DNA of 64,000 nt from NCBI RefSeq assembly GCF_964065165.1, contig NZ_OZ061549.1:1364001-1428000 (forward strand), read 5' to 3'. Both the position numbers and the translations under genes were made by a program. Below, in pieces: positions 6,665 through 63,608 of this stretch (positions are counted from its first letter, which is position 1; each line of letters begins with the position of its first letter). Below the pieces are notes generated by a model. The model saw only the letters and a program-made list of their open reading frames with translations, ran no database searches and was not told where the DNA came from. Source of the DNA: Levilactobacillus yonginensis. GTDB lineage: Bacteria; Bacillota; Bacilli; Lactobacillales; Lactobacillaceae.

Positions 6665-6801
6665 GGACGAACCTGTAGGTGCTGGAACGCCATGGGCACG
6701 GTTTTGAGCCAAAGAGCGGTCTCAAAAGCCGGCCCTTCTCTAACCTGAGAAAACCACTCAGCTAAGAGAAATTTCATGGCTGAGCACCTACAGGTTCGTC
6801 C
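6665..6801 (+). repeat. Structured intergenic repeat, copy A (class I)
   Basis: Closed by a 19-bp perfect stem (6665-6683 with 6783-6801). Inside lie a second stem GCCATG/CATGGC, a hairpin TTTTGAG/CTCAAAA with tip CC-AAAGAGC-GG-T, and a hairpin TTCTC-TAACC-TGAG with loop AAAACCA, CTCA-GCTAA-GAGAA. Same plan as the copies at 6871-7001 and 26137-26273. It lies between luxS and the LCP gene. Confidence 0.85.
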
Positions 6802-6870
6802 TCACGGCTTAGTTTGATAATGCCATCAATACACTCTAATACGTGATGAGCGGCATGCATCAGCCGAGAG

Positions 6871-7001
6871 GGCGGGAAAAATAGGCTCAGCCGTGGCACT
6901 GTCTTAACACGGTGACTTTCCGTGGTTAGGCAGAACCGAGTTTCGAGACCGCTTTTTGGCTCGAAATCGTGTTCACAGCGTTCCAGCCTATTTTTCACGC
7001 C
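6871..7001 (-). repeat. Structured intergenic repeat, copy B (class I)
   Basis: Inverted relative to copy A. Closing stem 6871-6887 with 6985-7001, 16 of 17 paired. Read on the minus strand it has the second stem GCTGTG/CACGGC, the hairpin TTTCGAG/CTCGAAA with tip CC-AAAAAGC-GG-T, and a hairpin with TAACC, loop AAAGTCA and GTTAA. The primary sequence differs strongly from copy A but every helix is kept. Confidence 0.82.
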
Positions 7002-7227
7002 CGGCAAGGCGCAAAACCAACCACTTAACAAATTGCAAAGACACGTACGTCCTTACTGTAACCAAATTATTAAGAAATTGCCATCATTTTCTCCGAACGT
7101 TAGGTTTCCTTTCCGAACAGATGACAGATCTGCTAAGAAACCGTAAAAACCAATGGCTCTCACCGCCATTCTAGCTAAGGGTGGGTATACTAGATTGCGG
7201 ATTAAGAGAGTAAGGGGAGGAATCATC

Positions 7228-8223
7228 ATGCAAAATACACCATTACCACCACGACGAGAAAGTTTTGCTCCTCGTCGCCATCATTTACGCCACTGGCTCA
7301 TCGCTCTGTGCAGTCTACTGGCGATTGGCGGTGGCGTCTACGGCTGGCATGCTTGGCACGCGGCCCAGCAGACCTTTTCTGCCACTTATCATGCCGTTGG
7401 CAAGCCCAGTGACACCACCATCACCAGCGGTAAGCCGTTTGCTGTGCTACTCCTAGGAACCGACACGGGTGCGCTTGGGCGTCACGACGTTGGCCGCACG
7501 GATACCATGATTATTGCTACCATCAATCCCCAAAAACAGACCGCTAAATTAACGAGCATCCCTCGTGACACGCTAGTCAACATCTGGGGAAGCCAACAGG
7601 ACGAGGAAAAAATTAACGCAGCCTACCCCCTTTATGGTGCCCAAACCACCATCAAAACGGTAGAGCATCTGGTAAACGTCCCCATCCCCTATTACGTACT
7701 TCTCAACATGGGGGGCCTTAAGAAAATGATCAATGCCGTGGGTGGCGTTACGGTCGACCCACTACTGACTTTTCACTACCAACAGGCTAACGTAGCCAAG
7801 GGCGTCAAGATTCATTTGAACGGCACTAGCGCCTTGGCCTACTCACGGATGCGTGACCAAGATCCATTAGGTGACTACGGCCGGCAAGCCCGGCAACGCC
7901 AAATTATCAAGGCACTCGTCCTAAAGGAAGCTAGCATCGGGTCTTTGCCACGGTATCAATCCGTCCTGGACTCCCTGACTAACAACCTCCAGACCAACTT
8001 AACCTTCCAAGACCTCGTCTGGTTACGCGCCAAGGATGGCCACACCAGCCGCCACATTCAATCACAAACGCTGCAAGGGCAACCAGCGACCATCAACGGT
8101 ATCGACTACCAAATCGCTCCCCAGTCTGAGATTGACAAGGTCTCTACCAGCCTACGTCAGGCCTTGAATCTATCAAGTAATGCTGGCTTTCAAACGGACG
8201 CGTTGGATCCCGTTGGTTTTTAA
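7228..8223 (+). CDS. LytR-CpsA-Psr (LCP) family cell-wall ligase
   Basis: About 331 residues. LCP proteins move teichoic acid or polysaccharide from the lipid carrier onto peptidoglycan outside the membrane. One N-terminal membrane segment (near residues 22-40) is followed by the LCP core 'LLLGTDTGALGRHDVGRTDTMIIATINPQ' and 'KLTSIPRDTLV', which carry the conserved Asp and Arg residues that bind the pyrophosphate head, and 'GLKKMINAVGGVTV' and 'RQRQIIKAL'. The ATG at 7228 was chosen for its GGGGAGG box 7 nt upstream; the in-frame ATG at 7153 lacks one. A TATACT box at about 7186 may be its -10. Single gene with its own terminator. Confidence 0.93.
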   Translation: MQNTPLPPRRESFAPRRHHLRHWLIALCSLLAIGGGVYGWHAWHAAQQTFSATYHAVGKPSDTTITSGKPFAVLLLGTDTGALGRHDVGRTDTMIIATINPQKQTAKLTSIPRDTLVNIWGSQQDEEKINAAYPLYGAQTTIKTVEHLVNVPIPYYVLLNMGGLKKMINAVGGVTVDPLLTFHYQQANVAKGVKIHLNGTSALAYSRMRDQDPLGDYGRQARQRQIIKALVLKEASIGSLPRYQSVLDSLTNNLQTNLTFQDLVWLRAKDGHTSRHIQSQTLQGQPATINGIDYQIAPQSEIDKVSTSLRQALNLSSNAGFQTDALDPVGF

Positions 8224-8306
8224 AGCAAAAGCTTAGAATCGGAGGTGATCAAGTAGTGCTAGTTGCCTTCTACTCCACGTTTCAGCAATCTAAATTTAGA
8301 GTCAGT

Positions 8307-8339
8307 AAAAGGACCTGGAAGAAATCCCAGGTCCTTTTT
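8307..8339. terminator. Bidirectional terminator
   Basis: AAAAGGACCTGG pairs with CCAGGTCCTTTT across a 7-nt loop, followed by T-runs on both strands. Serves the LCP gene and the convergent membrane-protein gene. Confidence 0.92.
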
Positions 8340-8371
8340 GCGTCGTTAACTTAAATCACACTATTTGCCGA

Positions 8372-8956
8372 CTAGCCTTGACTTTGCTCATTCTGCCGAG
8401 CAGTCCAGATATGCCAACCAATCACTAAGACGCTGACATCCCCGAGAATCGTACCCAACGCAATCAACCAGCTACCAGCTGAAGTAACCATCAGACTAGA
8501 TGTCAGTGGAATTCGTGCTAATAGGGCTAGCAACGTCGTAATCCACAGGCTCCCCAGGATAGCGGGGAACCAGGAGTTGACGTGCCGTCGCTGATGCCAC
8601 CAGGTCAACCCGGTCACAATCAACGCAAACAATAGGAGTGTGATACTCCCACCAACACGCGTTAAGTAGACCAATCCTACGGCCGGAACTGTCCGTGCCG
8701 CAATCCACATTGCCACCAGTAGCCCAATAATAATGATCAACCAGCCAACAATCCTCCCTCGTGCGGACGCGCGTTGTGTCAACCACAGGCCCAAAGCCAT
8801 GGCAATCACGAACAGGCCATACTGCACGGCCACTAACAAGAGTTGAAACGGAACTGCTGGCAAAATCACACTTGGTAAAATGGTTCCTAACGTAAAAATC
8901 AACAGTGGTACCAAGAGATCCCAGCTCCACCATTGGGGCTTCGTTTGTTTGGTCAC
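8372..8956 (-). CDS. Multi-pass membrane protein, unknown
   Basis: About 194 residues with six hydrophobic segments (for example 'LLVPLLIFTLGTILPSVILP', 'LLLVAVQYGLFVIAMALGLW', 'IVGWLIIIIGLLVAMWIA'). The overall pattern resembles small uncharacterised membrane proteins of Firmicutes; no catalytic or transport motif is seen. The start is taken as GTG at 8956 (VTKQTKPQWW) because AAGGGAG lies 7 nt upstream; the longer frame from ATG at 8992 has no ribosome site. It lies downstream of, and in line with, the crcB pair. Confidence 0.65.
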   Translation of the reverse strand: MTKQTKPQWWSWDLLVPLLIFTLGTILPSVILPAVPFQLLLVAVQYGLFVIAMALGLWLTQRASARGRIVGWLIIIIGLLVAMWIAARTVPAVGLVYLTRVGGSITLLLFALIVTGLTWWHQRRHVNSWFPAILGSLWITTLLALLARIPLTSSLMVTSAGSWLIALGTILGDVSVLVIGWHIWTARQNEQSQG

Positions 8957-9034
8957 AACGTTTGCTCCCTTCTTTTTCTTCAATGTGTTCAATGATAAAG
9001 AAGTTCCAGAGAAAATACCACTGATTTATCGTGA

Positions 9035-9394
9035 TCAGCCGTGGGTAAGCCCCCACCAGAAGCCCGCCGCAGCCAGTAAGCACCCACCTAAGACACTCAA
9101 CAGTAAGTAACCCAGCACTGCACCAAAACGCCGCTGATCAGCCAGCATCACGACCTCATGGCTAAAGGTAGAGAAGGTCGTGAATCCACCGAGAATGCCC
9201 GTCCCCAATAAAACGGCCCAAAGATTACTAGCCCGTAATCCGGTTAAACCGCCTAATAGCAGGCAGCCCACCCAGTTGATGGTTAGAGTAGCCACCGGCC
9301 AATGATTACTATACCAACGTTGAACCAATCGAGTTGTCCCGTAGCGGCCCAGAGCGCCGAGCATGGCCCCTAATCCTGCTAGTGCCGCCATCAT
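9035..9394 (-). CDS. crcB: Fluoride channel subunit CrcB/Fluc (second of pair)
   Basis: 119 residues with four membrane segments. Fluc channels export fluoride passively and work as antiparallel dimers. The signature 'GALGRYGTTRL' near the N terminus and the phenylalanine box 'GFTTFSTFSHEV' near residue 75 are present. Its ATG overlaps the stop of the upstream crcB by 4 nt, so the two are translationally coupled. In species with two adjacent genes the products usually form a heterodimer, each half in opposite orientation. Confidence 0.93.
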   Translation of the reverse strand: MMAALAGLGAMLGALGRYGTTRLVQRWYSNHWPVATLTINWVGCLLLGGLTGLRASNLWAVLLGTGILGGFTTFSTFSHEVVMLADQRRFGAVLGYLLLSVLGGCLLAAAGFWWGLTHG

Positions 9395-9783
9395 CGTTCA
9401 GCCACCGGAAACGTTCCCCACTTACGCGCGCTCCACAGGCCGAACCAGCTACAAGCCAATCCGCCCACCAGGGTCAGCGCCAAGTAGCTCGCCGCGAGGC
9501 CCCATTGTTGCTGTTGCAGTAAGCGAACCACATCGACACTGAAAGTCGAAAACGTGGTGAAAGCCCCGACACCGCCGACACCCAAACCAACGGTAATAGC
9601 GCTCGGCCAATGAGCCGTTACCCGTTTGGCATGCGACAACCAGGCTAATCCCCCACTTCCCATCAAGTTAACCAGGACAGTGGCCCACGGAAATCCAGAC
9701 GTCGGCGGCAAGCTCTGACCAATGAGGTAACGGCCACTGCCACCTAAAAACGCAAAAAGTGCAATCGAAACGATGTTTGCCAA
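9391..9783 (-). CDS. crcB: Fluoride channel subunit CrcB/Fluc (first of pair)
   Basis: 130 residues, four membrane segments, with 'LGGSGRYLIGQ' and the phenylalanine box 'GAFTTFSTFSVDVV'. The start is TTG at 9783: GGAGG lies 8 nt upstream, and the nearby ATG at 9787 is out of frame and only 3 nt from that box. Partner of the crcB at 9035-9394. The leader is only about 30 nt, too short for a fluoride riboswitch, so control must be different or constitutive. Confidence 0.93.
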   Translation of the reverse strand: MANIVSIALFAFLGGSGRYLIGQSLPPTSGFPWATVLVNLMGSGGLAWLSHAKRVTAHWPSAITVGLGVGGVGAFTTFSTFSVDVVRLLQQQQWGLAASYLALTLVGGLACSWFGLWSARKWGTFPVAER

Positions 9784-9813
9784 GCCATTGACCTCCTTGT
9801 AAATGCTTCGCCC

Positions 9814-9822
9814 ATTATAGCA
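9814..9822 (-). promoter_or_regulatory. crcB promoter, extended -10
   Basis: TGC-TATAAT reads on the minus strand about 30 nt before the crcB start. No good -35 box is present because the upstream terminator occupies that space; the extended -10 could compensate. Confidence 0.6.
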
Positions 9823-9845
9823 AAAAAGGCCGCCCCACGGCGACC
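9822..9845 (-). terminator. Terminator of the thioredoxin operon
   Basis: GGTCGCC pairs with GGCGGCC on the minus strand (loop GTGG), followed by TTTTTT. It directly abuts the crcB promoter. Confidence 0.88.
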
Positions 9846-9857
9846 CTTCATCACGTT

Positions 9858-10121
9858 CTAATGCGTTTTAACCACGAGGTCTAAAGCATCTTGGAGTGCT
9901 GCCTGTTGATCTTCATTGAGTTCATCCTCGGCGACACACTGCTTAACGTTCTCCGCAACAACCACGCCCATCATGCGCTCCACCCCGGAACGCACGGCAG
10001 CTAATTGCGTCAAGATATCCTGACACTCCCGTCCCTCGTCGACCATCTTCAGGATTCCCTGAAGTTGGCCATCGGCACGTCGCAAGCGATTTTTCAATTG
10101 ATTAGCGGTCGTTTGCACCAT
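9858..10121 (-). CDS. CsoR/FrmR family sensor-repressor (CstR-like)
   Basis: 87 residues, all-helical DUF156 fold. Copper-sensing CsoR uses Cys-His-Cys; here the residues are Cys33, Asn58 and Cys62 ('RECQDIL' and 'AENVKQC'), so the copper His is replaced. This is the pattern expected for the persulfide-sensing CstR branch, where the two cysteines form the sensor. It overlaps the thioredoxin stop by 1 nt and is co-transcribed with it. The promoter carries the palindrome ATACCCC-AA-GGGGTAT, a G-C tract operator of this family. It probably represses its own operon and may respond to reactive sulfur or disulfide stress; the ligand is inferred. Confidence 0.85.
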   Translation of the reverse strand: MVQTTANQLKNRLRRADGQLQGILKMVDEGRECQDILTQLAAVRSGVERMMGVVVAENVKQCVAEDELNEDQQAALQDALDLVVKTH

Positions 10122-10447
10122 TAGGCTTTCACCTCAGTCAACTTTTCGTCGAGATACTTCTTCAAAGCCGCTTTAGGATGGAACCCCACCACTTTTTCAG
10201 TTGGCATGCCGTTCTTAAAGACGACCATGGAAGGAATGCTCATAATTCCTAATGATTGTGCCAGCTCCTGATTCTGATCAACATCTAGTGAAGCGAACTT
10301 GACCTGGTCACCATATTCTTGATCTAAGGCTTCCAAGACTGGCGTCTGCATCTTACATGGCCCGCACCAATCGGCCCAAAAATCGACAACGGTTACCGCG
10401 GTATCGTCGCCTACGTGTTCAAAGTCCTTACTCGTAATTGCTTGCAT
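10121..10447 (-). CDS. trxA: Thioredoxin
   Basis: 108 residues, full thioredoxin fold. The active site is 'WADWCGPCKMQTP' (Cys28 and Cys31) and the cis-proline loop is 'GIMSIPSMVVF'. It reduces protein disulfides in the cytoplasm using thioredoxin reductase. First gene of a two-gene operon with the CsoR-family repressor, which suggests this is an inducible thioredoxin rather than the housekeeping copy. GAGGGGG lies about 7 nt before the ATG. Confidence 0.95.
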   Translation of the reverse strand: MQAITSKDFEHVGDDTAVTVVDFWADWCGPCKMQTPVLEALDQEYGDQVKFASLDVDQNQELAQSLGIMSIPSMVVFKNGMPTEKVVGFHPKAALKKYLDEKLTEVKA

Positions 10448-10484
10448 GAAAGAATCCCCCTCAAATTTTATTAATGTGGTTAGT

Positions 10485-10500
10485 ATACCCCAAGGGGTAT
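10485..10500. promoter_or_regulatory. CsoR/CstR-type operator over the trxA promoter
   Basis: ATACCCC-AA-GGGGTAT is a palindrome with perfect 7-bp arms. It overlaps the minus-strand -10 box TATACT (10482-10487), 35 nt before the trxA start, so bound repressor would block transcription. G-C tracts flanked by AT match known CsoR/CstR operators. Confidence 0.85.
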
Positions 10501-10526
10501 TAAAAAGCGAGATTTTTGTTTTCAGT

Positions 10527-10543
10527 TAGCCAGCGAGTCAACC
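10527..10543. repeat. 17-nt sequence shared with the flank of the tnpB element
   Basis: TAGCCAGCGAGTCAACC occurs here and at 19698-19714. Both copies lie beyond the 3' end of a minus-strand IS200/IS605-type gene. Confidence 0.5.
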
Positions 10544-10604
10544 CTCTAATATACCAGTCACAGGCACCCTCCTTGGCCAGCTTCAGTAAACCGCAACAAT
10601 CAAG

Positions 10605-11370
10605 CAAATAAAAACCACCCGTTGAACGGGTGGTTTTCTCGAGGGCTATAAGCCCTGGATACTGGCCAGCGTCTCAAGGCGCTGGCTTTTGTGTGTCAAA
10701 GCCAAATTGCGTTTGCCACTTTTGCTGCCGCTTTAAGCGGCGTTTGTATTACTTACCCTGACCCTTGAAGGGGTCTTCATACTCCCGAACGCTGAGTCTA
10801 TCCACCGCCTGATCACTTTTTTCTTGATCACGAATATATTTTTTGATGGTGGCTTCGTTCAAGCCCACCGTGCTCACGTAGTATCCGATTGACCAGAAAT
10901 GTCGATTTCCAAATTTATATTTCAAATTTGCATGCTGGTCAAACATCATCAACGCACTTTTTCCCTTTAAATATCCCATAAAGCTCGACACACTGAGCTT
11001 GGGTGGGATACTTACCAGGAGATGAGCATGATCTGGCATCATATGACCTTCCAAAATCTTGACACCTTTATACTGGCATAAAAGTCGAATATCCTCCTGT
11101 AAGTCACGTCGATATTGATTATAAATCATCTTTCTCCTATTACTTTGGAGTGAATACGATATGGTACTTGCATAACCACTTTGTGTGCGCAAGACTGTTG
11201 AGTTTATTCGCCATTTGAAAAGTCCCCTTTCGATTTAGCAATGTTGGCTTCGACACCTACATTCTAATTCTTATGGAGGGCTTTTTGGTACAACCGATCT
11301 ATTATCCGCCCGCATAGCGGGTGGGTTTTTGTTTCGCACGCTTTAGCGTGCTCAACTGGGCCTAAAGGCA
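10605..11370 (-). mobile_element. IS200/IS605-family element with tnpA only (ends approximate)
   Basis: A broken tnpA gene is flanked by subterminal hairpins, as expected for elements that transpose as single-stranded DNA. Left side: CCACCCGTT/AACGGGTGG at about 10607-10625, then stems GCCAGCG/CGCTGGC and GCCGCTT/AAGCGGC. Right side: CCCGCATAGCGGG and GCACGCTTTAGCGTGC near 11310-11350. Both ends show AAAAACC(C)ACCCG in opposite orientation. No target duplication is expected for this family, so exact ends cannot be fixed. Confidence 0.65.
10749..11214 (-). pseudogene. tnpA: IS200-type Y1 transposase tnpA, frameshifted
   Basis: HUH single-strand transposase. The catalytic 'DHAHLLVSI' (HxH) and the tyrosine of 'IKKYIRDQ' are intact. 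The canonical N terminus reads from ATG at 11214 as MANKLNSLAHTKWLCKYHIV followed by FTPK and then stop codons, while the remainder 'NRRKMIYNQYRRDL' continues in another frame. One extra base in the A/T pair at about 11140-11141 explains this: the expected AAGTATAGG has become AAGTAATAGG. A 147-residue frame starting downstream at 11192 has a non-homologous N terminus and is unlikely to be functional. Either a recent inactivation or a sequencing error. Confidence 0.85.
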
Positions 11371-11375
11371 CTACC

Positions 11376-11408
11376 AAAAAAACGAGGTGCGACCTTCGTC
11401 TCACCCCG
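11376..11408 (-). terminator. nox terminator
   Basis: CGGGGTGAGAC pairs with GTCGCACCTCG on the minus strand (loop GAAG), followed by seven T. It lies 20 nt behind the nox stop. Confidence 0.9.
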
Positions 11409-11429
11409 CTTCCAATTCAAGTCTTTAAA

Positions 11430-12836: not shown

Positions 12837-13306
12837 GTTTACCCTCCTACGTGAAAAACGATTCTGAATTAAGTCTACTTGAAAGTTAGCGAAAGATAAA
12901 TGACTTCGTCTTGGAAAAACGATGATTTAGCCCCAAAACCTCACACATCGTCAAGATTGACGGAATTATGTGCTCTTTGCACACTTATTTCCCACTAAAA
13001 TTCACATAATCATTACATAAATAATCGCTTAAAAAACCGTCATAATCACGTCGAGAGCATTTTCAACCTAACTTTAAAATTCACTTAGTTTGTTCAGTTA
13101 CTCAGCTAATGTCGACACCATAATCCGTATACCCCAATGAAAGACTAATGGTTAATCGGCAACGGGTTAAACTGTCAGAAAGCCCGATACCGTTAGGAAT
13201 ACCGGGGGATTAAGCTTTCCCCTATCACCTGCTAACCTGATTGGGACGATGAACTGACTTGGGGTGCTCAACTACTAGCCATTTTTCGGAAATAGTCACA
13301 TTTTGG
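12837..13306. other. Intergenic region upstream of nox
   Basis: About 470 nt that holds the minus-strand nox promoter and no coding frame. A small hairpin GGGGGATTAAGCTTTCCCC near 13203-13221 is the only structure I see. Confidence 0.35.
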
Positions 13307-13335
13307 TTGCAGTGTTTTTCAGAACTGACTATGAT
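13307..13335 (+). promoter_or_regulatory. Candidate promoter with inverted repeat
   Basis: TTGCAG, a 17-nt spacer and TATGAT. The -10 is covered by an 11-bp inverted repeat, GAACTGACTAT (13322-13332) with ATAGTTAGTTC (13340-13350), one mismatch, which looks like an operator. The string CTATGATATCGAT recurs at 14447. Confidence 0.45.
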
Positions 13336-13341
13336 ATCGAT

Positions 13342-13490: not shown

Positions 13491-13500
13491 TTGTCTAATT

Positions 13501-14907: not shown

Positions 14908-14914
14908 GTTGGCA

Positions 14915-17797: not shown

Positions 17798-18026
17798 TTG
17801 GTCTTTGCGGAAACCCTGCCGCTTCCGGTCGGTAGAGTGAGCGCTGGCTGTGGGGGCCAGCTCACCATGTGACGTAGACTCGAAAATTCACCCAGTTAAC
17901 GCCAATTTCATAACCAGCCCCCACCCCTTCCCATCCTACCCACTATTCTTAGTTTGTAAGCGCTTTGACTTTCCCTAACAGAACAGGTATAACAAAATTA
18001 TACTTATAAAACCTGAGGTGGATTCC

Positions 18027-25860: not shown

Positions 25861-26136
25861 AATTTAACGACCCCTTTTCTAATAAAGTTCTCCCCGATCA
25901 CAGTTAGTCCGATACGTTCAATTTAGTTAAAACGGTTACATTTAACTAGTCACCACTACTCCCCCCAAACGGAACCAGTGGGTGATCTAACTGTCAGGGA
26001 TGATTTGTCTCTATTATACGGCTTATCAGGCGAAAAACCAGTTCAAAGCTATCGTAATCTACTTCACAAATAAGTGTACACAATTGAATCGTTACTAAGC
26101 CAATGATTGCACGGTGTTTCGCTTGGCTGCCTTACC
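25861..26136. other. ndh upstream region
   Basis: Contains the minus-strand ndh promoter with TATAAT at 26014-26019. The untranslated leader is about 140 nt long. No other structure seen up to the repeat. Confidence 0.4.
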
Positions 26137-26273
26137 GGGTGAGCTGGTAGGTGCCGGAACACCATAGGTACAATTTTGAGCCAAAGCGCGGTTTCCAAGA
26201 TCGACGTTTCTCCAACCTGAGAAGACCATTCAGCTAAGAGAAATTTCATGGCTGAGCACCTACCAGCTCACCC
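26137..26273 (+). repeat. Structured intergenic repeat, copy C (class I)
   Basis: Closed by an 18-bp perfect stem (26137-26154 with 26256-26273). Compared with copy A, the closing stem differs at five positions on each side and all five keep pairing. The 3' half, with the hairpin TTTCTC-CAACC-TGAG, loop AAGACCA, TTCA-GCTAA-GAGAAA, is nearly identical to copy A. The first hairpin is partly decayed. Located between ndh and the NAD(P)-binding gene. Confidence 0.85.
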
Positions 26274-26503
26274 TCTCGGCTAACGCAGATACACCGCTGC
26301 AACAATCATACGCTTTAAGAATTTATCAAACTAACTTGAATAACGAATCTTCATTAATAGGCAAGCAATCTCACCCGGTAAGGCGTCAATTTTTCCAATC
26401 ATCTATGAATTTGAGCATAATTCACAAGTCATTATTAATGAAATTATAGCTAAAAACATTTATGGTGAAGTTTGTAAGGTAACTTTCGAATGGAGGTATT
26501 TTG

Positions 26504-41673: not shown

Positions 41674-41801
41674 GGTACCGGCCTTCTTTTCTCAAAATTA
41701 AGTTTGCACGATCAGTGTAACACGTAATTTTTAAAAGTACAGGTTAAATACTTTCAACCCGTGAGTCTGAACTAACCGGGGCGACCGTTTCATCCACCTC
41801 T

Positions 41802-41879
41802 GGTCGTCAGAAATAGCCCCGCTGTGGGGACTGGGGAAAGCCAAAGAACGTCGACACGCAAACTTAATTCCTGACCACC
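41802..41879 (+). repeat. Structured repeat, degenerate copy G (class II)
   Basis: Keeps the class II edge motifs GCTGTGGGGACTGGGG, AGCCAAAG and CGACACG, and outer arms GGTCGTCAG/CTGACCACC (one mismatch), but the inner hairpins are deleted or decayed. Lies upstream of the FAD-oxidase gene. Confidence 0.55.
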
Positions 41880-42124
41880 TCCGGCTACAATGGTTTCGTT
41901 GTGCATAGAAAATAGCCACATGACAATTGAATTATCATGTGGCTACGGAGCCTTGTATATTAGTTAAATTATACAGATAGATTCATTGAAAAAATCAGTT
42001 AATCCGAGAATGTTTGCATATCAGTTAAACACAGTGAGTCTGTCTCTTCCAGTCATACGACTGCTGACACAATCACGCAAGTTCTATAGCCACTGGCCAA
42101 CGGCGCCTCTGGCTAGCAGGGATG

Positions 42125-42274
42125 GGGCCGGCTGTGTCGGTGGTCTTAGCTCGATGATTTTCTCGAGGTTAGACCACGGGACGAGCTTGGAAACTCGGTG
42201 GTCTTCCGAGATTTCAAGTCGAAGAGCAAGACCGCCTTTTGGCTTGCTCCGGTCCCCACAGCAGGAGCCGGCCC
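42125..42274 (-). repeat. Structured intergenic repeat, copy H (class II)
   Basis: Outer arms GGGCCGGCT (42125-42133) and AGCCGGCCC (42266-42274) and inner GCTGTG/CACAGC. Read on the minus strand: hairpin GAGCAAG/CTTGCTC with tip CC-AAAAGGC-GG-T, hairpin CGACTTGAAAT/GTTTCCAAGCTCG, and hairpin TGGTC-TAACC-TCGA, loop GAAAATCA, TCGA-GCTAA-GACCA, ending in CCGACACAGC. Confidence 0.85.
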
Positions 42275-42298
42275 TGAGCCCATGACATAAAAAGGGCA

Positions 42299-42333
42299 AC
42301 AAAAAAGGGCCCAAGCGCTGTCTTGGGTCCTTT
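42299..42333 (-). terminator. Minus-strand terminator next to copy H
   Basis: AAAGGACCCAAG pairs with CTTGGGCCCTTT (one G-U) around six bases, followed by T on the minus strand. It is the second hairpin behind the ABC genes. Confidence 0.7.
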
Positions 42334-42487
42334 CGTGAAAACTAATCGCTTATCAAATGATGTAGTTTTTAAAGACGTTTCAAATAAGCATTATTGATGC
42401 TCATAAGGTCATCATACGCTTCAATTTATCAAAGTTCAATAATTTTTATCTTAACGAATGTATAACTATTTTGTGAAAATTAACACG

Positions 42488-42525
42488 AAATCGGATAAAT
42501 CCTTACTAGTTAATTTATCCGATTT
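42488..42525 (-). terminator. Terminator behind the ABC exporter genes
   Basis: AAATCGGATAAAT pairs perfectly with ATTTATCCGATTT (loop of 11). The T-run is short on the minus strand, so strength is uncertain. Confidence 0.6.
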
Positions 42526-42585
42526 TCCCTAGATTTGCAAGAAAAAGCACTGGTTAACTTCCGCAGCCGTCAGCCCATTTTCCCC

Positions 42586-43251
42586 TCAAGCTAGCTCTAC
42601 AAACCGTTTATTCTCTAACCGAAATTGGTGATCACACTGACTCGCGACGTCCGGTTCGTGGGTCACGATAATGACACATTTTCCTTGCTCATGTGCAATC
42701 TTTTGGAACTGTTGAATGACTTCTTTCGTATTATCTTCGTCTAAATTTCCAGTCGGTTCATCAGCCACCACCAGCTTCGCATCGCAACACATCGTCCGCG
42801 CAATGGCCACCCGTTGTTGCTGGCCCCCGGAGAGGTGTTGGACGTTGCGTTCGGCTAAATCAGCGCCAATACCTAAGTCGCTTAATACCTGGCGAGCATA
42901 GGCCTGATCACCCGTGTGATCCGCGTTCGTAATCGCCATCGCTGTGAGCAAGTTATTTAACGGTGACATATAGGTAAAGAGGTTGTAAGCCTGAAACACA
43001 ATGGAGACATCGTGCCGGCGGAAGTTGGTCAAGCCAATCTGCTTAAGGGAACGATCATTTAATTTAATATCCCCCTCCTTAGGCCGGTCCAACCCGGCAA
43101 TCAACGATAGAAACGTGGTCTTTCCCGATCCGGAATGACCAAGAATGGCGTAGGACTGACCAACATCAAATTCCAGATCAATCCCCTGAAACAGTGGCTG
43201 GTCCTGATCCCGATACCAGTAGCCCAAATCTTCTGTTTTTAACATCTGCAT
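42586..43251 (-). CDS. ABC transporter ATP-binding protein (MacB/LolD type)
   Basis: 221 residues. Walker A 'LGHSGSGKTTFLSL', signature '[18 protein letters not shown]', Walker B 'KLVVADEPTGNLDEDN' and His-loop 'VIIVTHEPDVASQ' are complete. The 'ADEPTGNLD' form is typical of the MacB/LolD exporter group. Its partner, the FtsX-type permease, lies directly upstream with a 6-nt gap. Such pairs export peptides or drugs, or act in stress sensing; nothing here fixes the substrate. AGGAGG precedes its ATG. Confidence 0.95.
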   Translation of the reverse strand: MQMLKTEDLGYWYRDQDQPLFQGIDLEFDVGQSYAILGHSGSGKTTFLSLIAGLDRPKEGDIKLNDRSLKQIGLTNFRRHDVSIVFQAYNLFTYMSPLNNLLTAMAITNADHTGDQAYARQVLSDLGIGADLAERNVQHLSGGQQQRVAIARTMCCDAKLVVADEPTGNLDEDNTKEVIQQFQKIAHEQGKCVIIVTHEPDVASQCDHQFRLENKRFVELA

Positions 43252-53671: not shown

Positions 53672-53706
53672 CTTTTTTGCTAAAAGACTTGCCTTAAGGT
53701 CACTCT

Positions 53707-53757: not shown

Positions 53758-53785
53758 CATCGGCAAAAAGGAGTCGAATCATATT

Positions 53786-56915: not shown

Positions 56916-56940
56916 CCAATCAATACTAATTTAAAACAGT

Positions 56941-56977
56941 AGCGGGTACGCCATCTACACGACGTACCCGCTATTTG
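56941..56977 (+). terminator. Terminator behind the DyP gene
   Basis: AGCGGGTACG pairs perfectly with CGTACCCGCT around 12 bases; the T-run is short (ATTTG). Confidence 0.7.
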
Positions 56978-57032
56978 CGTCTTGACACTGCTAGTCGCCC
57001 TTCAAGAAATTTTAAAATTTAACGCCGCATTA

Positions 57033-57054
57033 CGCTCACAACCAATTGCGAGCG
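57033..57054. promoter_or_regulatory. Inverted repeat before the MFS gene
   Basis: CGCTCACAA-CCAA-TTGCGAGCG, eight of nine paired, 140 nt before the start. It resembles a LacI-type or TetR-type operator (TTGTGAGCG half-site). The regulator is not identified. Confidence 0.4.
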
Positions 57055-57196
57055 CATACAAATAAGCACTAAGCGTTGACCTTCCGGGAATATGGGGGTA
57101 TGTTAGTAGGGTTGCCATTTCGATTAAGTCACGATTAGTTTGCGTTACTACGGGTAATCTCACTAATCAATTCATTCAATAAGGAGTTGAACCGTT

Positions 57197-58429: not shown

Positions 58430-58440
58430 TGACCATTACC

Positions 58441-58503
58441 AAAATAGACGCTGTCGCAGAATGGCTTGATCTTTCAAGTCCTTCCGCGACAACGCCTATT
58501 TTT
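58441..58503 (+). terminator. MFS gene terminator
   Basis: A long imperfect stem (AAAATAG-CG--GTCGC--GAA-GG-TTG against its complement) with TTTTT at the end on the plus strand, 12 nt behind the stop. Confidence 0.8.
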
Positions 58504-58517
58504 GGTCAAAAAGTTCT

Positions 58518-58706
58518 GGGAGCACCGTCTCCGGTCGGTCGAAACGCCACCCCGTGAGGCAGACCTGGGGCCTAAGAAACGGTCCCCAGGGCGACTTGAA
58601 GCCTTCAACCCAAGTCTTCAAGCTCGGCCAGTCCTCTAAGATCGGGAAGTTCACCCGATCTTAGAGGACCGACACGGGGTTCTGTTCCTACCGACCTGCG
58701 ACTCCC
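58518..58706 (+). repeat. Structured intergenic repeat, copy D (class II)
   Basis: Outer arms GGGAG and GGTCGGT pair with ACCGACC and CTCCC; inner ACCCCGTG/CACGGGGT. Hairpins: CCTGGGG/CCCCAGG with tip CC-TAAGAAAC-GG-T; CGACTTGAAG/CTTCAAGCTCG; and a 16-bp perfect stem (GTCCTCTAAGATCGGG with its complement) with loop AAGTTCA, then CCGACACGG. Same plan as copies at 42125 and 58896, with different bases in every stem. Confidence 0.85.
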
Positions 58707-58895
58707 ACTGGTTTAAACCAAAAAGACACGCTCACTAAGGCTCGGATAGTTCTGAGGTGAATAAACTCACCGCCCAAATTTTCAGTACTTCATGCATTCA
58801 CCAATATGGCAAACAGCAACCTGCGTTTTGATTGAATATCGACTACTCCAAATCATCCTCACTACAGGTGCCCGCACCCCACTACCGTAACCGGA

Positions 58896-59068
58896 GGTCG
58901 CCAGAAATGGTGGCTGCTGTGTCGGTGTTCTTAGTCTGATGAACTTGCGGACTTAGAACACGGAATGAGCTTGGAAACTCGGCAATTTTTTCGAGATTTC
59001 AAGTCGAGGAGTAAGACCGCTTCTCAGGCTTACTCCGGTCCCCACAGCAGACGCCATCCCTGGCAACC
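58896..59068 (-). repeat. Structured intergenic repeat, copy E (class II)
   Basis: Outer arms of 26 nt, 22 paired. Read on the minus strand: hairpin GGAGTAAG/CTTACTCC with tip CC-TGAGAAGC-GG-T; hairpin CGACTTGAAATCTCG/CGAGTTTCCAAGCTC; hairpin GTGTTC-TAAGTC, loop containing AAGTTCA, GACTAA-GAACAC, then CCGACAC. It lies 190 nt from copy D, in opposite orientation, in the same convergent gap. Confidence 0.85.
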
Positions 59069-59081
59069 GCAGGTGTTGTAC

Positions 59082-59570
59082 TTACCCCGCGAACTTAGTT
59101 AGGGGCACGTCAGCATCGTCGCTCCCAAAAACCTTAACGGGCGCTGGGTTAATTGCCAACAGCGTGTTGATTTCGCCAAAGCCATCCACGAGGTCAAAGT
59201 CCAGGCCAGCCGTCATTAGTTGCCGCCGGGCATCTCTGATTTGGCCGGGCAATTCCACAATGTCGTCAGTTCGACCGACCAACAACCGGCGCGCTCCAGC
59301 AGCCTGGGCCGCGGTAATCAGCGTTGACACCGTCTGGGTTAATTTGATAGTTGGCACCAAGGCCACCACCATATCTTGGTCGAGCATGGCGGCCGTTAAG
59401 CCACCCTCGTCCAACGTCTCACCGGTCAGTGCCATGACAGATTGCGGTAAGTCGACCGCACTCGGCGTGTACACGGTTAAACTCACGTGACTATTTTGAC
59501 TGAGTTGGCGGACAAAGGTTTGGCTGGTCGTGTCTAACGCCCCAGCGAGCAGGATTCTTTTCAAGGTCAT
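59082..59570 (-). CDS. Small NAD(P)-binding protein, atypical
   Basis: 162 residues. A single Rossmann-like domain similar to short NmrA/SDR proteins ('RILLAGALDTTSQTFVRQL', 'AGARRLLVGRTDDIVELPG', 'LDFDLVDGF'). The usual glycine motif G-x-x-G-x-x-G is degenerate (only 'AGALDTTSQT'), so cofactor binding is uncertain. Length is about two thirds of the family norm. AAAGGGAG precedes the ATG. It has no partner gene. Confidence 0.7.
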   Translation of the reverse strand: MTLKRILLAGALDTTSQTFVRQLSQNSHVSLTVYTPSAVDLPQSVMALTGETLDEGGLTAAMLDQDMVVALVPTIKLTQTVSTLITAAQAAGARRLLVGRTDDIVELPGQIRDARRQLMTAGLDFDLVDGFGEINTLLAINPAPVKVFGSDDADVPLTKFAG

Positions 59571-59799
59571 AACTCCCTTTCGTTTTGATGATGTTTCTTA
59601 GTATAAGGGGTTAGACTTAGTCGAAGGCAAGCTCTATTTTTAAAATAATTTCCGCTGAGTTTAATAAGAAATTTCTTATTAAAAATTCATTTTTCCTAGG
59701 AATTTTTGAAGGCGGTTCATTGCTTACTGCTATACGGGATAAGGGCTTACGTGAATTCGTTCACACTCACATACCATCAACACTCACAATAGTTATCTT
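59571..59799. promoter_or_regulatory. Divergent region with palindromes before opuC
   Basis: Contains a perfect 24-bp palindrome at 59660-59683 (half-site TTTAATAAGAAA with its complement) and the Rex-like GTGAA-TTCG-TTCAC at 59751-59764. It lies between the small NAD(P)-binding gene and opuC. The regulators are unknown. Confidence 0.5.
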
Positions 59800-59828
59800 T
59801 TGGATTACGGGGGTAATTCGTGTACAAT
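59800..59828 (+). promoter_or_regulatory. opuC promoter
   Basis: TTGGAT, a 17-nt spacer and TACAAT. The leader of about 140 nt carries a small hairpin (CGCCGA/TCGGCG) near 59922-59941. Confidence 0.55.
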
Positions 59829-59972
59829 GAGTACTAATCGAGAGTTGAGAATTCAAATACGACCGGTCCCCAGGTTGCTTCGTGACTAACGCGTGCTGCC
59901 GGCACACCGATCGTTATTTTTACGCCGAAGAATTGTCGGCGAATGTGACACCATCACACAGGAGGTTAATCT

Positions 59973-61178
59973 ATGCTACTTTCAATGGAACATCTACGTA
60001 AAGAATATCCTAACGGTAAAATAGCCGTCGACGACTTCAACTTAGAGGTCGACCGCGGCGAATTTATTGCCTTCATTGGGACGTCTGGTTCCGGTAAGAC
60101 CACGACCATGCGGATGATCAATCGCATGCTCAACCAAACTTCCGGTACCATCAAGATCAACGGTAAGGATATTTCCAAGATGGATCCAGTCAAGCTCCGG
60201 CGGTCAATCGGCTACGTGATTCAAAACACCGGGCTGATGCCCCATATGACCATTCAAGAAAACATTGAAATGGTGCCGAAACTATTGGGTTGGTCCAAGG
60301 AAAAGCGCGAAGAACAGGCACATAAGATGATTGCCCTGGCACAGTTACCAGATGAAATGCTGCAACGCTACCCCGGAGAGCTATCCGGGGGGCAGCAGCA
60401 ACGGATTGGGGTCGTCCGCGCCCTAGCTGCCGATCAAGAGCTTATTTTAATGGATGAACCCTTTGGGGCTTTGGACCCCATCACACGTGAATCACTTCAG
60501 GACCTGGTTAAGCACTTACAAGAGGACCTCGGCAAGACCTTCATTTTCGTCACCCACGATATGGATGAAGCGCTGAACCTCTCAACCAAAGTCGTGATCA
60601 TGAGTCAAGGGAAGCAGGTCCAGGTCGACACACCCGAAAATATTCTCCGTCACCCCGCCAACGAGTTCGTCACGAACTTGATTGGAGAGGAACGCCTGAT
60701 CAGAGCACAACCAAACATCCTGACGGTTAGTCAGATCATGTTAAAGAACCCTGCCGCTATCACGCCTGACAAGACGTTGGAAGACGCCATTGATCAAATG
60801 CATGAGCGGCGAGTTGATACACTGTTGGTTACCGACAAGGACAACGTCTTGCAAGGGTTTGTTGACTTAGATGACATCAACCGTATCGCAGACGCCCACA
60901 CGCCGGTCAGTCGGTTCACGCAAGATCGGGTTTTCTACGTTAAAGCAAACGCGTTGATCGGTGACACTGTTGACCGTATCTTGAAAAAGGGTGTGAAGAA
61001 CGTACCCGTTGTCGATGAGAAAAAACACTTAGTCGGCATCGTTACGCGGACTGCCCTCGTAGATATCGTCTACGATGCCTTACGCGGCGCACCTGACGCT
61101 AATGAGAAACCAGCTTCACCAATTAATGCTGACATCCATGCTGCCGCAACCCGTGAAGGAGGCGAAATGCCACAATGA
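59973..61178 (+). CDS. opuCA: Glycine betaine/carnitine/choline ABC transporter ATP-binding protein OpuCA
   Basis: 401 residues. An ABC ATPase of the ProV/OpuCA group: Walker A '[14 protein letters not shown]', signature '[17 protein letters not shown]', Walker B '[13 protein letters not shown]' and His-loop '[12 protein letters not shown]'. Two CBS domains (about residues 250-370) follow, as in all OpuCA; they sense ionic strength or bind c-di-AMP. It imports compatible solutes under osmotic stress. First gene of a four-gene operon. AGGAGG precedes its start. Confidence 0.96.
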
Positions 61179-61801
61179 TGCACTTTTTAGCAACTTATGG
61201 GACTCAACTGCTCAGTAAGACGGGGCAACACCTGTTGATCTCCGCAGCTGCCCTGGGGCTAGGTGTCATCGTGGCCGTTCCGCTGGGAATCTTACTCACC
61301 CGCATGAAACGCGGCGCTAACCTGGTAATGTCACTGGCCGGGGTGCTGCAAACCATCCCCGCCATGGCCCTGTTAGCGATGATGATTCCTATCTTTGGTA
61401 TCGGCTCCACACCTGCCATTGTGGCCCTCTTCATTTACTCGTTGTTACCGATCCTCCGCAACACTTATTTAGGCATGCAGGGGGTCTCACCGACCGTCCG
61501 GGATGCCGCTAAAGGGATGGGCATGACCTGGTGGCAAATGATGACCCGCGCCGAGATTCCGTTGGCCGCGCCCGTCATCATGTCTGGGATTCGGCTATCC
61601 GCCACCTACGTGATTGCCTGGGCCACACTGGCTTCCTACATTGGTGCCGGCGGTCTCGGGGACTTCATTTTTAATGGGCTGAACCTTTATCGATCCGACC
61701 TGATTCTTGGCGGCTCAATTCCCGTTATCCTGTTGGCGTTACTCGTCGACTATCTGCTGGGTAAAGTGGAACGCGCTGTCATGCCCAAGCCATTACGATA
61801 G
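61175..61801 (+). CDS. opuCB: Osmoprotectant ABC transporter permease OpuCB
   Basis: 208 residues with five to six membrane segments. The ABC coupling loop is '[32 protein letters not shown]'. Its ATG overlaps the OpuCA stop by 4 nt. Partner permease is OpuCD. Length and loop match the family. Confidence 0.95.
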
Positions 61802-61811
61802 GAGGTCCGTT

Positions 61812-62750
61812 ATGCGAAAACATTTACGCAAATGGCTCGCCGGACTTCTGGTAGTCATTGCAATATTACCGTTAAGTGGTTGCAGCTTCAGTTTACCTGG
61901 GCTATCCGGTTCGGGCGACAACACCGTTCGTATCGCCTCTCAGAACACAACTGAGCAGCAGATCATGGCCTACATGATTCAAGGCATGATCACCCACTAC
62001 ACCAAATTAGATTCAACCATCATCAACAACCTGGGCTCTGGTAACGTTAGTTTCAATGCCCTAAAAAATAAGCAAGCTGACATCTCGTCCATCCGATTCT
62101 ACGGGACCGACTTAACGACCGTCCTGAATGAGAAATTCGAACGGGACCCCGCCAAGGTCAAGTCGACCGTCAAAGATGAATTTCAGAACCGTTACCATAT
62201 GACCTATCTTAAGGATTATGGGTTCTCAGATACCTACGCCTGGATGGTCAAGCAGAGCTATGCCAAGAAACACAACCTGCAGACCGTCAGCGACTTGCAA
62301 AAACTTTCACCCAACATGACCGTCGGGATTGACCAAATCTGGCAGAACCGTCAAGGAGACGGCTACCCCGCCTTCCAGAAAATGTACGGTTTCGGCTTTG
62401 GTAAAGTTTTACCGATGCAGACTGGACTGCTCTACGATGCACTATCTGCCGATAAAATGGACGCCATCTTGGGTTACTCCACCGATGGCCGGGTCTCCAG
62501 CTATCATTTGAAATTGCTAAAGGATGACAAGAACTTCTTCCCGCCTTACGATGCCGCACCGGTTGCGACCGACGCCATCCTAAAGGCCCATCCGGAATTG
62601 AAGCCCGTCTTAAACCGGTTGGCTGGCAAGATTTCCTTGAAGACCATGCAGACGTTGAACTACAAGGTGGACGACCAACTCGAAGAACCACAGACCGTGG
62701 CCAACGACTTTTTGAAGGCGCACCACTACTTTGAAGGGGGGAACGACTAG
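61812..62750 (+). CDS. opuCC: Osmoprotectant-binding lipoprotein OpuCC
   Basis: 312 residues. A lipoprotein signal 'LLVVIAILPLSGCSF' with the lipobox Leu-Ser-Gly-Cys (Cys about residue 23) anchors it outside. The mature part is the type II binding fold of the glycine betaine/carnitine group ('ASQNTTEQQIMAYMIQGMI', 'YGFSDTYAWMVKQSYAKKH', 'DDKNFFPPYDAAPVA'). ATG at 61812 follows AGGAGG; a longer frame from 61707 overlaps the permease and is not used. Confidence 0.95.
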   Translation: MRKHLRKWLAGLLVVIAILPLSGCSFSLPGLSGSGDNTVRIASQNTTEQQIMAYMIQGMITHYTKLDSTIINNLGSGNVSFNALKNKQADISSIRFYGTDLTTVLNEKFERDPAKVKSTVKDEFQNRYHMTYLKDYGFSDTYAWMVKQSYAKKHNLQTVSDLQKLSPNMTVGIDQIWQNRQGDGYPAFQKMYGFGFGKVLPMQTGLLYDALSADKMDAILGYSTDGRVSSYHLKLLKDDKNFFPPYDAAPVATDAILKAHPELKPVLNRLAGKISLKTMQTLNYKVDDQLEEPQTVANDFLKAHHYFEGGND

Positions 62751-62751
62751 T

Positions 62752-63414
62752 ATGAAAGACATGGATCTGTTCAATCAGTTAATTTACTATTTCAGCCATA
62801 ACGGGATGTACGTCCTCAGTCAATTCAACCAGACGTTCCTGGTCTCCATCTACGGCGTGCTCCTGGGCGCCATTGTGGGGATTCCGCTGGGGATCTGGAT
62901 TTCCCAGTACCGGCGGCTCTCACCAGTGATCATCGGGATTGCGAACGTGATTCAGACGGTGCCTTCACTGGCGATGCTGTCGATTCTGATGTTAGGCTTA
63001 GGACTCGGGGAAAATACGGTGATTGCGACCGTCTTCCTCTACTCCCTCTTACCCATCATCAAGAACACCTATACTGGGATGCTCAGTGTCGATGGTGACG
63101 TACTGGACGCTGGTAAAGGAATGGGGATGACGCGGTTCCAAGTCATGAAGACCATTCGGATTCCACTGTCGCTCTCCGTCATCATTGCTGGGATTCGTAA
63201 TGCGCTGGTTATCGGAATTGGGATTACCGTTATCGGCTCGTTCATCGGTTCCGGTGGGCTCGGAGACATCATCGTCCGCGGGACCAACGCAACGAATGGT
63301 GGGGCAATCATCCTGGCCGGTGCCTTGCCAACCGCTTTAATGGCAATCATCACCGACCTGGTACTGTCCTTCATCGAAAAACGCTTAACGCCGAAGACTT
63401 CTTCGGAGGGTTAA
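62752..63414 (+). CDS. opuCD: Osmoprotectant ABC transporter permease OpuCD
   Basis: 220 residues with five or six membrane segments and the ABC loop 'LDAGKGMGMTRFQVMKTIRIPLSLSVIIAGIR'. It starts 2 nt after the OpuCC stop, with GGGGGG before the ATG. Last gene of the operon; a strong terminator follows. Confidence 0.95.
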   Translation: MKDMDLFNQLIYYFSHNGMYVLSQFNQTFLVSIYGVLLGAIVGIPLGIWISQYRRLSPVIIGIANVIQTVPSLAMLSILMLGLGLGENTVIATVFLYSLLPIIKNTYTGMLSVDGDVLDAGKGMGMTRFQVMKTIRIPLSLSVIIAGIRNALVIGIGITVIGSFIGSGGLGDIIVRGTNATNGGAIILAGALPTALMAIITDLVLSFIEKRLTPKTSSEG

Positions 63415-63427
63415 TTTTAATTTGTTT

Positions 63428-63465
63428 GACGTCAGTATGCCGCTTGGGTATGCTGGCGTTTTTTG
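63428..63465 (+). terminator. opuC operon terminator
   Basis: CGTCAGTATGCC pairs with GGGTATGCTGGCG (G-U and one bulge), followed by six T. Confidence 0.88.
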
Positions 63466-63529
63466 TTTGCTCCTAAATTGTTAGTCTTAGATCAAAGTGC
63501 AGGTAGTGGGCAGTTGGCCGCCTGTGGCT

Positions 63530-63608
63530 GCCAGGTAGTACGCTGTGGGGCAACCCATGTTCTAAGCGGCAAAACCGCTAAGAACATCGACACTGCGCAC
63601 CACCTGGC
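63530..63608 (+). repeat. Structured repeat, copy F (class II, internally deleted)
   Basis: Outer arms GCCAGGTAGTACGC/GCGCACCACCTGGC (two mismatches), inner GCTGTGGGG and CGACAC as in the other class II copies, and one hairpin ATGTTC-TAAGCGG, loop CAAAA, CCGCTAA-GAACAT. The two other hairpins are missing. It follows the opuC terminator. Confidence 0.7.

Follow-up and report, generated by a model that had tools for sequence, protein, structure and literature searches.

Paired, structured repeats at gene ends of Levilactobacillus yonginensis: an apparently undescribed family with a covarying fold

Copies in the window, the genome and related genomes

The 64-kb window, i.e. the whole stretch of Levilactobacillus yonginensis DNA analysed here, carries nine copies of a structured repeat (Table 1) that belongs to a family seemingly without earlier description. 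Eight of the stretches had been put forward as one family in a preliminary description of the window, and all eight match a single covariance model, R1, at E ≤6.5e-6. R1 was trained on 30 full copies that include 42102-42290, 58523-58705 and 58887-59078, leaving five independent matches among the eight. Taken on the plus strand and within the boundaries first listed, seven of the eight stretches had fold z-scores of -5.4 to -10.3 against shuffled sequences; the copy at 41792-41888 is counted as decayed because its fold z lies near that of the shuffles. A shared plan of closing stem, inner stem and hairpins had also been proposed. One covariance model does cover the copies, but the two or three hairpins ascribed to each do not extend to 63516-63621, which has a single inner hairpin; the middle hairpin H2 is missing from the 6653, 6860 and 26125 copies. 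Identity had been located in the loops; instead, conserved letters often lie in junctions and internal loops, and apical loops are variable. The arrangement of window copies as divergent pairs (6653/6860, 41792/42102 and 58523/58887) had gone unremarked.

Table 1. Copies of the repeat family in the 64-kb window and the spacers between divergent 5' ends
Positions	Strand	Feature	Model match	Fold z and remarks
6653..6811	-	H1+H3 element, left partner of 6860-7014 (divergent)	R1 62.2 bits, E 3.3e-13; R2 147.4 bits, by construction (training row)	6665-6801, reading strand: -9.07
6812..6859	.	spacer, first pair		48 nt, between 6653-6811 and 6860-7014
6860..7014	+	H1+H3 element	R1 57.8 bits, E 3.7e-12; R2 155.9 bits, by construction	6871-7001: -5.85
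17817..17943	-	ninth copy, partly decayed	R1 32.4 bits, E 4.4e-6	-3.02 own strand, -1.41 other strand; absent from the preliminary description
26125..26283	-	single H1+H3 element	R1 37.0 bits, E 3.5e-7; R2 116.7 bits, by construction	81% identity to 6657-6809 across 153 nt
41792..41888	-	decayed copy, left half of divergent pair	R1 31.7 bits, E 6.5e-6	-0.79, no better than shuffles; 41802-41879: -0.08 (+), -2.04 (-)
41889..42101	.	spacer, second pair		between 41792-41888 and 42102-42290
42102..42290	+	full element, H1+H2+H3	R1 159.3 bits (training copy)	-5.37
58523..58705	-	full element, H1+H2+H3, left of divergent pair	R1 126.0 bits (training copy)	58518-58706, + strand: -7.56
58706..58886	.	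spacer, third pair		181 nt, between 58523-58705 and 58887-59078
58887..59078	+	full element, H1+H2+H3, right of pair	R1 171.3 bits (training copy)	58896-59068: -7.31
63516..63621	-	variant reduced to the closing stem and a single hairpin, H1	R1 64.4 bits, E 9.5e-14	63530-63608, - strand: -6.46

Genome-wide, R1 gave 142 matches and a second covariance model, R2, gave 112. Together with weaker copies from a model scan of fetched stretches, their union places a minimum of 198 copies on contig 1, and one more lies on contig 5. In the scan of fetched stretches, the best 150 of 268 matches and 24 others were retained, the rest being antisense shadows or overlap duplicates; one duplicate among the retained rows was then removed. 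The context counts given below (placement, ends and promoters) cover 173 copies without C1:1349070, which the union of 198 includes; genes were called by a simple longest-ORF method, and because flanking gene calls were lacking for three of the 173, placement counts refer to 170. A full module measures about 190 nt; the reduced forms come to about 155-170 or 90-105 nt. With 42125-42274 as a DNA query, at least 40 genome matches were obtained (the query itself counted), and with a median best identity to another copy of 76.5% the matches are not limited to recent identical copies. The family, unrecognised at the outset, stayed so in Rfam 15: no element in the 64-kb window was matched at or above gathering score, and three weak snoRNA-type matches below that score all lay away from the elements. 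Word searches of the open-licence literature returned no recognisable description of the family, nor did a term search of PMC8040213. A repeat family named Lac-1 is listed for L. johnsonii in PMC2267715.

To date, the family is known only from Lactobacillaceae. Counting the own genome, 33 of the 35 Levilactobacillus genomes searched carry it; elsewhere in the bacterial family it is patchy, and none of 23 genomes from other families of the order gave a match. Under strict filters and with six candidates taken from each genome, an order-wide search was positive in 21 of 395 genomes, all of them Lactobacillaceae and from six of 80 genera, and a class-wide search in one of 398, namely the own genome. 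Of the 35 genus genomes, two gave no match at all and a third gave just six; the family is therefore dispensable. Phage, plasmid and viral sequences yielded no copy to one 190-nt module query and one exact pattern, which distant copies could escape.

Covariation and strand asymmetry of the fold

A full module consists of a long closing stem, with an internal loop near its outer end, and two three-way junctions bearing the hairpins H1, H2 and H3. The letters of the closing stem are almost unconstrained. Across the 30 full copies, two-sided compensation was seen in 48 of 63 pairs, the covariation score was 0.461 as opposed to 0.183 after shuffling, and paired cells made up 94.8%, against at most 44.1% when the pairing was slid. 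Across all five measures, none of 500 shuffles scored as high, which makes the covariation strong and far above chance. The earlier claim that structure is kept despite sequence change thus applies in the genome as well as in the second subfamily (two-sided changes in 37 of 50 pairs), at orthologous loci and outside the genus, where copies of other genera show it in 58 of 63 pairs, though in an alignment that was fitted to the model and so leans toward it.

The two strands are not equivalent in this respect. Among 8926 cells, G-U was found in 505 and A-C in 129, and when the two columns in which G-U is the rule were set aside, 368 and 126 remained. Per copy (n = 149), G-U was in excess in 112, in deficit in 10 and equal in 27. 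The foot of H2 has a conserved G-U in 26 of 30 copies, and the excess in H3 is slight (25 to 16). For the G-U count in other genera, one antisense shadow row and one duplicate row were removed. This preponderance of G-U over A-C on one strand argues for a single-stranded molecule and against cruciforms.

A similar lean was observed at orthologous loci. Rows below 80% identity, with fewer than 700 aligned bases, with the element uncovered or with more than 25 gaps were excluded, and L203, which overlaps L202, was left out of the change counts. Loci from relatives with a name number 56, of which 36 are from L. yonginensis or L. tongjiangensis. Divergence was 4.7% in stems, 8.2% in loops and 8.4% in flanks, the last including coding sequence. 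In 35 orthologous elements, changes from an element's own Watson-Crick pairs led to G-U 47 times, to A-C 20 times and to a transversion mismatch 13 times; 20 elements leaned toward G-U and five toward A-C. Double exchanges in the same elements kept the pairing in 25 cases and broke it in three. Some double exchanges may stem from gene conversion among copies. The preference for G-U holds for GC pairs (61 to 35) as well as for AU pairs (25 to 8), while unpaired changes are near parity (C/T 79, A/G 69), and it is therefore not a mutational skew. These counts speak for a fold maintained on a single strand, with RNA as the likeliest form.

Placement at gene ends, spread and likeness to known repeats

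Neighbours less than 1 kb apart are arranged mainly in divergence (50 '-+', 1 '+-', 6 '++' and 7 '--'), with a median spacer of 197 nt. In 120 of 170 cases, the 3' end of the module faces the 3' end of a gene on the opposite strand, at a median distance of 76 nt (lower quartile 23), and the rule extends to single copies (53 of 68); it is broken by 50 of the 170, whose downstream gene lies on the same strand. With respect to replication, GC-skew bins assign 96 copies to the lagging and 77 to the leading side, without a clear bias. Spacers are mostly unrelated (11 BLAST matches, nine of these inside one subfamily), and eight divergent neighbours with spacers above 450 nt enclose between zero and six genes. 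No gene recurs between pairs, and no protein cluster exceeded three among 510 proteins of at least 100 aa from the fetched stretches.

As to the module ends, the 5' tetranucleotide is GTAG in 49 of 173 copies, others being TAAG, TTAA, TTAG, AGAG, TCAG, TGAG and so forth. A T5 run within 60 nt past the 3' end occurs in only 17 of 173, and an intrinsic terminator on the reading strand was rejected; A5 runs over the same distance (52 of 173) are as expected for terminators of the opposite gene. Within 100 nt upstream of the 173 5' ends, no sigma-70 promoter signal rose above shuffles: the fraction of copies above the shuffled 95% level was 0.01, in a low-power test of the sigma-70 consensus that gave only 0.13 upstream of long ORFs. 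An RNA would hence need read-through or unusual promoters. In the 100 nt downstream, on the opposite strand, the promoter score fraction was 0.10.

Past spread by copying is supported by unlinked copies that are up to 94% alike, by relatives that include loci without the copy and, in one subfamily, by five pairs at unlinked places whose spacers share stretches of 47-74 nt with 81-91% identity. Some indels resemble the decay of pairs via deletion in the own lineage rather than insertion. Of the initial proposal of an RNA class spread by copying, the spread is thus supported, whereas a stand-alone non-coding RNA gene, for which the sigma-70 signal is lacking, is not. The proposal of a MITE-like element agrees with the copying and with terminal inverted repeats, the latter being the closing stem of each module; the letters of this stem differ among copies, as they seldom do in MITEs. 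However, no linked transposase was found, and no target-site duplication was evident in the part of the flank list looked over by eye. Mobilisation in the manner of RAYT and REP was rejected: a Y1 transposase (PF01797) is encoded in 23 of 35 genomes, both element-free ones included, and is missing from seven genomes with at least 44 element matches each. A link to reverse transcriptase (group II intron or retron) was rejected too, RVT_1 being found in just 10 of 34 genus genomes.

By description, rather than by sequence, the family seems to resemble BOX, bcr1 or BIME in kind. REPs occur as inverted pairs. Common to REP/BIME/REPIN elements and the present family are inverted pairing and a preference for gene ends, and many of the present copies (49 of 173) start with the GTAG of REPs, the others with different letters. 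Yet REPs are short, simple palindromes of 20-40 bp (PMC3733652, in the part drawn upon), whereas the present modules are multi-branched and span about 90-200 nt; excerpts on GTAG REP families place them in Proteobacteria, Cyanobacteria, Chloroflexi and the PVC phyla, and REP/BIME come with a RAYT transposase, unlike the present family with its lack of a linked Y1 enzyme. BOX of Streptococcus pneumoniae, treated together with RUP and SPRITE, is likewise dispersed and modular with a stable predicted RNA fold; its boxB is absent or present in several copies, and BOX is over-represented between convergent genes (PMC3049150, in part). Divergent pairing is not described in the same portion of that source (PMC3049150), and the present family is distinguished by its long closing stem and two three-way junctions. 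The bcr1 repeats, which are about 150-167 nt long and reach 130 copies, are similarly restricted to one bacterial group, the Bacillus cereus group, and combine features of a mobile element with a conserved predicted fold (PMC6542083, PMC2267715, each in part). Their mobility is tied to a TTTAT motif in the excerpted text of PMC6542083, and pairing and orientation at gene ends, both seen in the new family, are not described in the portions of PMC6542083 and PMC2267715 consulted.

Possible origin and function

With moderate confidence, we favour the view that the modules are non-autonomous, mobile-derived structured repeats that are maintained today for their fold, perhaps to block antisense run-on into genes. 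The family would have spread as DNA, partly as whole pairs, through an enzyme acting in trans, and resident copies would be kept for an RNA that folds on the sense strand when stray transcription crosses the module. The guard role is proposed because of the placement: a transcript would meet the module just ahead of its antisense entry into the 3' end of the neighbouring gene, where the fold might stop, cleave or destabilise antisense-bound transcripts. Of two modules in divergence, each would guard the gene on its own side. On the other hand, the G-U excess over all copies does not depend on how the upstream gene is oriented (2.52 and 2.49 for its two orientations where the module faces an opposite-strand gene downstream, 4.10 and 4.12 elsewhere), so that local read-through is not favoured as the source. 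Nor is the excess stronger in guard-placed copies, and this independence of context weighs against the guard; single-stranded DNA, or selection acting while the copies spread, would agree with it just as well. At orthologous loci, G-U against A-C stood at 28 to 10 with the upstream gene in line and at 19 to 10 otherwise.

The independence of local gene context also suits a purely selfish MITE or giant REP-like repeat, the fold of which would serve a transposition enzyme working on just one strand, in single-stranded DNA, while fixed copies have no host role and the gene-end bias reflects insertion tolerance or target preference. About 200 copies with defined ends, a GTAG start in 49 of 173 as in REPs, the movement of some pairs as a unit (shared spacer stretches) and the resemblance of divergent pairs to inverted REP pairs all point in this direction; pneumococcal repeats, over-represented between convergent genes, are interpreted as parasitic in the part of PMC3049150 used. 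We nevertheless regard this as possible but unlikely: the one-strand fold is still kept in fixed orthologous copies, the distribution of Y1 transposase does not follow that of the repeats, the pairs hold no recurrent gene, and insertion tolerance alone leaves the orientation of single copies (53 to 15) unexplained, although target preference could account for it. More doubtful still is the strongest form of the functional reading, in which some 200 strand-specific 'antisense guards' per genome would constitute new locus-acting RNA modules. Derived from a mobile repeat and often arranged in divergent pairs, they would shield each gene end against opposite-strand transcripts and would persist solely through selection on the RNA fold.

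Independent small-RNA genes, transcribed outward from within the spacer, would make sense of a strand-specific fold and of divergent pairs that, at such spacings, look like back-to-back transcription units; yet with 5' ends devoid of promoter signal, mostly unrelated spacers and so few T-runs, we consider such genes improbable. DNA cruciforms, the third of the initial suggestions, or other two-strand structures such as gyrase or nucleoid sites, would agree with closing stems that are long and often perfect and with the frequent position between convergent genes, at which supercoils accumulate, but both strands are extruded in a cruciform and no one-strand preference would be expected, so that the G-U excess and the conserved G-U at the foot of H2 make this reading very improbable. 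Least credible of all are cis-regulatory leaders of the riboswitch or attenuator type. Some copies do precede a gene of the same orientation, the two at 6653-7014 among them, but only 50 of 170 have a same-strand gene at their 3' side, and no protein cluster above three recurs nearby.

For REP, BOX, ERIC and bcr1, whether such repeats are parasites or parts of the host is the standing question. The freely varying closing stems of the present family make strand-specific constraint measurable per copy and per locus, and the question thereby becomes testable from sequence. Its hosts are associated with food and should lend themselves to deletion work. A family with such a retained fold is probably not mere inert genomic litter, and, if constraint at the RNA level proves true, it would represent a large, apparently unlisted family of structured RNAs at many gene ends of a fermentation genus.

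Fold and copy number

The consensus fold was obtained from 30 full copies of the module, which were aligned and then jointly folded (alignment A1). Three pairs at its outer end are followed by a 3x3 internal loop, in which GNA usually faces GGA. Further in lie a closing stem of some 16 pairs and a short GCUGUG/CACAGC stem. The stem of the first hairpin, H1, is interrupted by a small internal loop, and next come a GGGAC/GUCCC stem and the hairpins H2 and H3. Among the eight stretches that the preliminary description had presented as structured, seven fold far more stably than their dinucleotide-shuffled versions, with z from -5.4 to -10.3 for the strand as listed, whereas 41802-41879 does not. 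Its proposal that structure is kept despite sequence change was borne out on A1, where 48 of 63 pairs carry two-sided changes and the covariation score is 0.461 against 0.183 for shuffled alignments, with 0 of 500 shuffles reaching it on any measure. Under the named structure 94.8% of the cells of A1 are paired; shuffled alignments reach 80.2%, and sliding the structure gives no more than 44.1%. This last control is generous to the structure, which was derived from the same copies. Two-sided change is likewise seen at 37 of 50 pairs in an H2-less subfamily (alignment A4, 22 copies) and at 58 of 63 pairs in other genera (31 distinct copies fitted to the model, one row being an antisense shadow).

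DNA searches of the own genome (2.88 Mb, five contigs) with two stretches as queries gave 9 and at least 40 matches, the latter from 40 scored among 98 candidates. Genome-wide, the covariance model built from A1 (R1) matched at least 142 times (150 of 826 candidates scored) and that of the H2-less subfamily (R2) at least 112 times (150 of 766). Running R1 on fetched stretches added weaker copies. Merging all of these gives at least 198 copies on contig 1, which together span about 34 kb, and a further one on contig 5; this is a lower bound because only part of the candidates was scored. The copies are spread unevenly along contig 1, crowding together around 0.2-0.65, 1.2-1.65 and 1.9-2.55 Mb and thinning out over 0.0-0.2 and 0.7-1.2 Mb.

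The folding strand and constraint at orthologous loci

Across 150 copies, pair cells comprise 7753 Watson-Crick, 505 G-U, 129 A-C and 539 other combinations. As A-C on one strand is G-U on the other, this argues that the reading strand is the strand that folds. The G-U excess is present in every helix class, weakly in H3 (25 vs 16), and also in copies from other genera (65 vs 25); per copy, G-U lies above A-C in 112, below in 10 and level in 27.

Relatives' orthologs diverge by 4.7% in stems, 8.2% in loops and 8.4% in flanks (57 comparisons, 38 elements), the flanks containing genes and hence being no neutral yardstick. To keep the relative from influencing the structure, the count was restricted to pairs with Watson-Crick bases in the own genome. 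Changes in 35 elements then led to G-U 47 times and to A-C 20 times (p 0.0013), with 13 other mismatches; double exchanges kept pairing in 25 cases and broke it in 3. G-C pairs (61 vs 35) and A-U pairs (25 vs 8) lean alike despite needing opposite mutations, and unpaired differences are balanced (C/T 79, A/G 69), which argues against a mere skew in mutation. Individual double exchanges may stem from gene conversion by other copies, yet this is not the rule, as orthologs are a median 94.7% alike, against a median of 76.5% for the closest match of a copy at another place in the genome.

Placement, mobility and range

Neighbouring copies less than 1 kb apart are mostly divergent, 5' ends facing each other (50, against 1 convergent, 6 '++' and 7 '--'), with a median spacer of 197 nt. 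Divergent pairs also occur in other species of the genus (e.g. L132, L133, L134, L143, L163) and in Companilactobacillus (one at locus L159, two at L171), and in several cases the halves come from different subfamilies (e.g. 1940136/1940551, 2094748/2095072). The gene 3' of the module lies on the opposite strand for 120 of the 170 copies that are flanked by a gene on either side, and for 53 of 68 single copies (p 4e-6). From the module's 3' end to the end of this gene the median is 76 nt (lower quartile 23 nt); on 5' sides, median gene distances are about 366 and 390 nt. Judging from this placement, the modules might guard against antisense transcription, their RNA fold checking transcripts about to run into the 3' end of a neighbouring gene. 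However, the G-U/A-C ratio is independent of the upstream gene's strand, both where the downstream gene is opposite (2.52 vs 2.49) and where it is not (4.10 vs 4.12), which counts against local read-through as the sole RNA source and somewhat against such a guard. No sigma-70 promoter signal was found upstream of the modules, a T-run is absent 3' of most copies, and no recurrent gene is associated with them.

Two unlinked copies are 94% identical. Divergent spacers are largely unrelated (11 BLAST matches among them, 9 inside one subfamily); five pairs at unlinked places share spacer stretches 81-91% alike, thus suggesting that this subfamily moved as whole pairs. The pairs at L178, L184, L186, L193, L194 and L198 have a spacer in common, and inspection by eye suggests additional similar hairpins beyond them; this subfamily is perhaps a larger composite mobile unit. 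In L. tongjiangensis, about 480 bp of the own genome carrying a '-' element and, judged by eye, an apparent '+' partner are missing, while at another locus it has a '-' element absent from the own genome; L. parabrevis shows a 52-bp gap opposite a 644-bp pair region. At two loci, one pair half appears to have been deleted in the own genome. L. mulengensis, with flanking genes 76-80% identical to 41700-42626, carries an identically oriented module in this interval, but its closing-stem letters differ greatly; it may be the insertion seen in the own genome or an independent one.

R1 matches 33 of 35 genus genomes, own included; G022 and G031 are without any family match, yet both have Y1 transposases. 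Syntenic stretches of L. yonginensis and L. tongjiangensis are about 84-99% identical to the own genome. Among 23 genomes from other families of the order it matches none. Under strict filters, with six candidates scored per genome, R1 was found in 21 of 395 genomes across the order, which belong to 6 of 80 genera and to a single family, and in 1 of 398 across the class, the own genome. An exact pattern matched 56 stretches in named genomes, mostly Levilactobacillus, and otherwise Lactiplantibacillus herbarum, Furfurilactobacillus milii, three Companilactobacillus species and an uncultured Lactobacillus assembly. With the queries used, searches of phage, plasmid and viral sequences turned up no copy.

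Readings of the family

The family had not been recognised initially, and comparison of the window with Rfam gave no match at an element either. Neither a Y1 transposase nor a reverse transcriptase is linked to it; the own genome has eight Y1 matches, three of equal score, including the one in the window.

Other features of the window
Feature	Position	Strand
Adjacent genes sharing stretches of 72-74% identity; probable tandem duplication	3490-4581 and 4667-5755	-
Y1-type (IS200-like) transposase gene	10749-11192	-
Perfect inverted repeat, 11-nt arms, no clear T-run, in the second pair's spacer	41913-41945	

We favour a mobile-derived repeat that is now kept for an RNA role. A purely selfish repeat working through single-stranded DNA is less favoured, because fixed copies still hold the fold and because tolerance of insertion alone leaves the orientation to gene ends unexplained. 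G022 and G031 should be useful for finding what family-free genomes are without.
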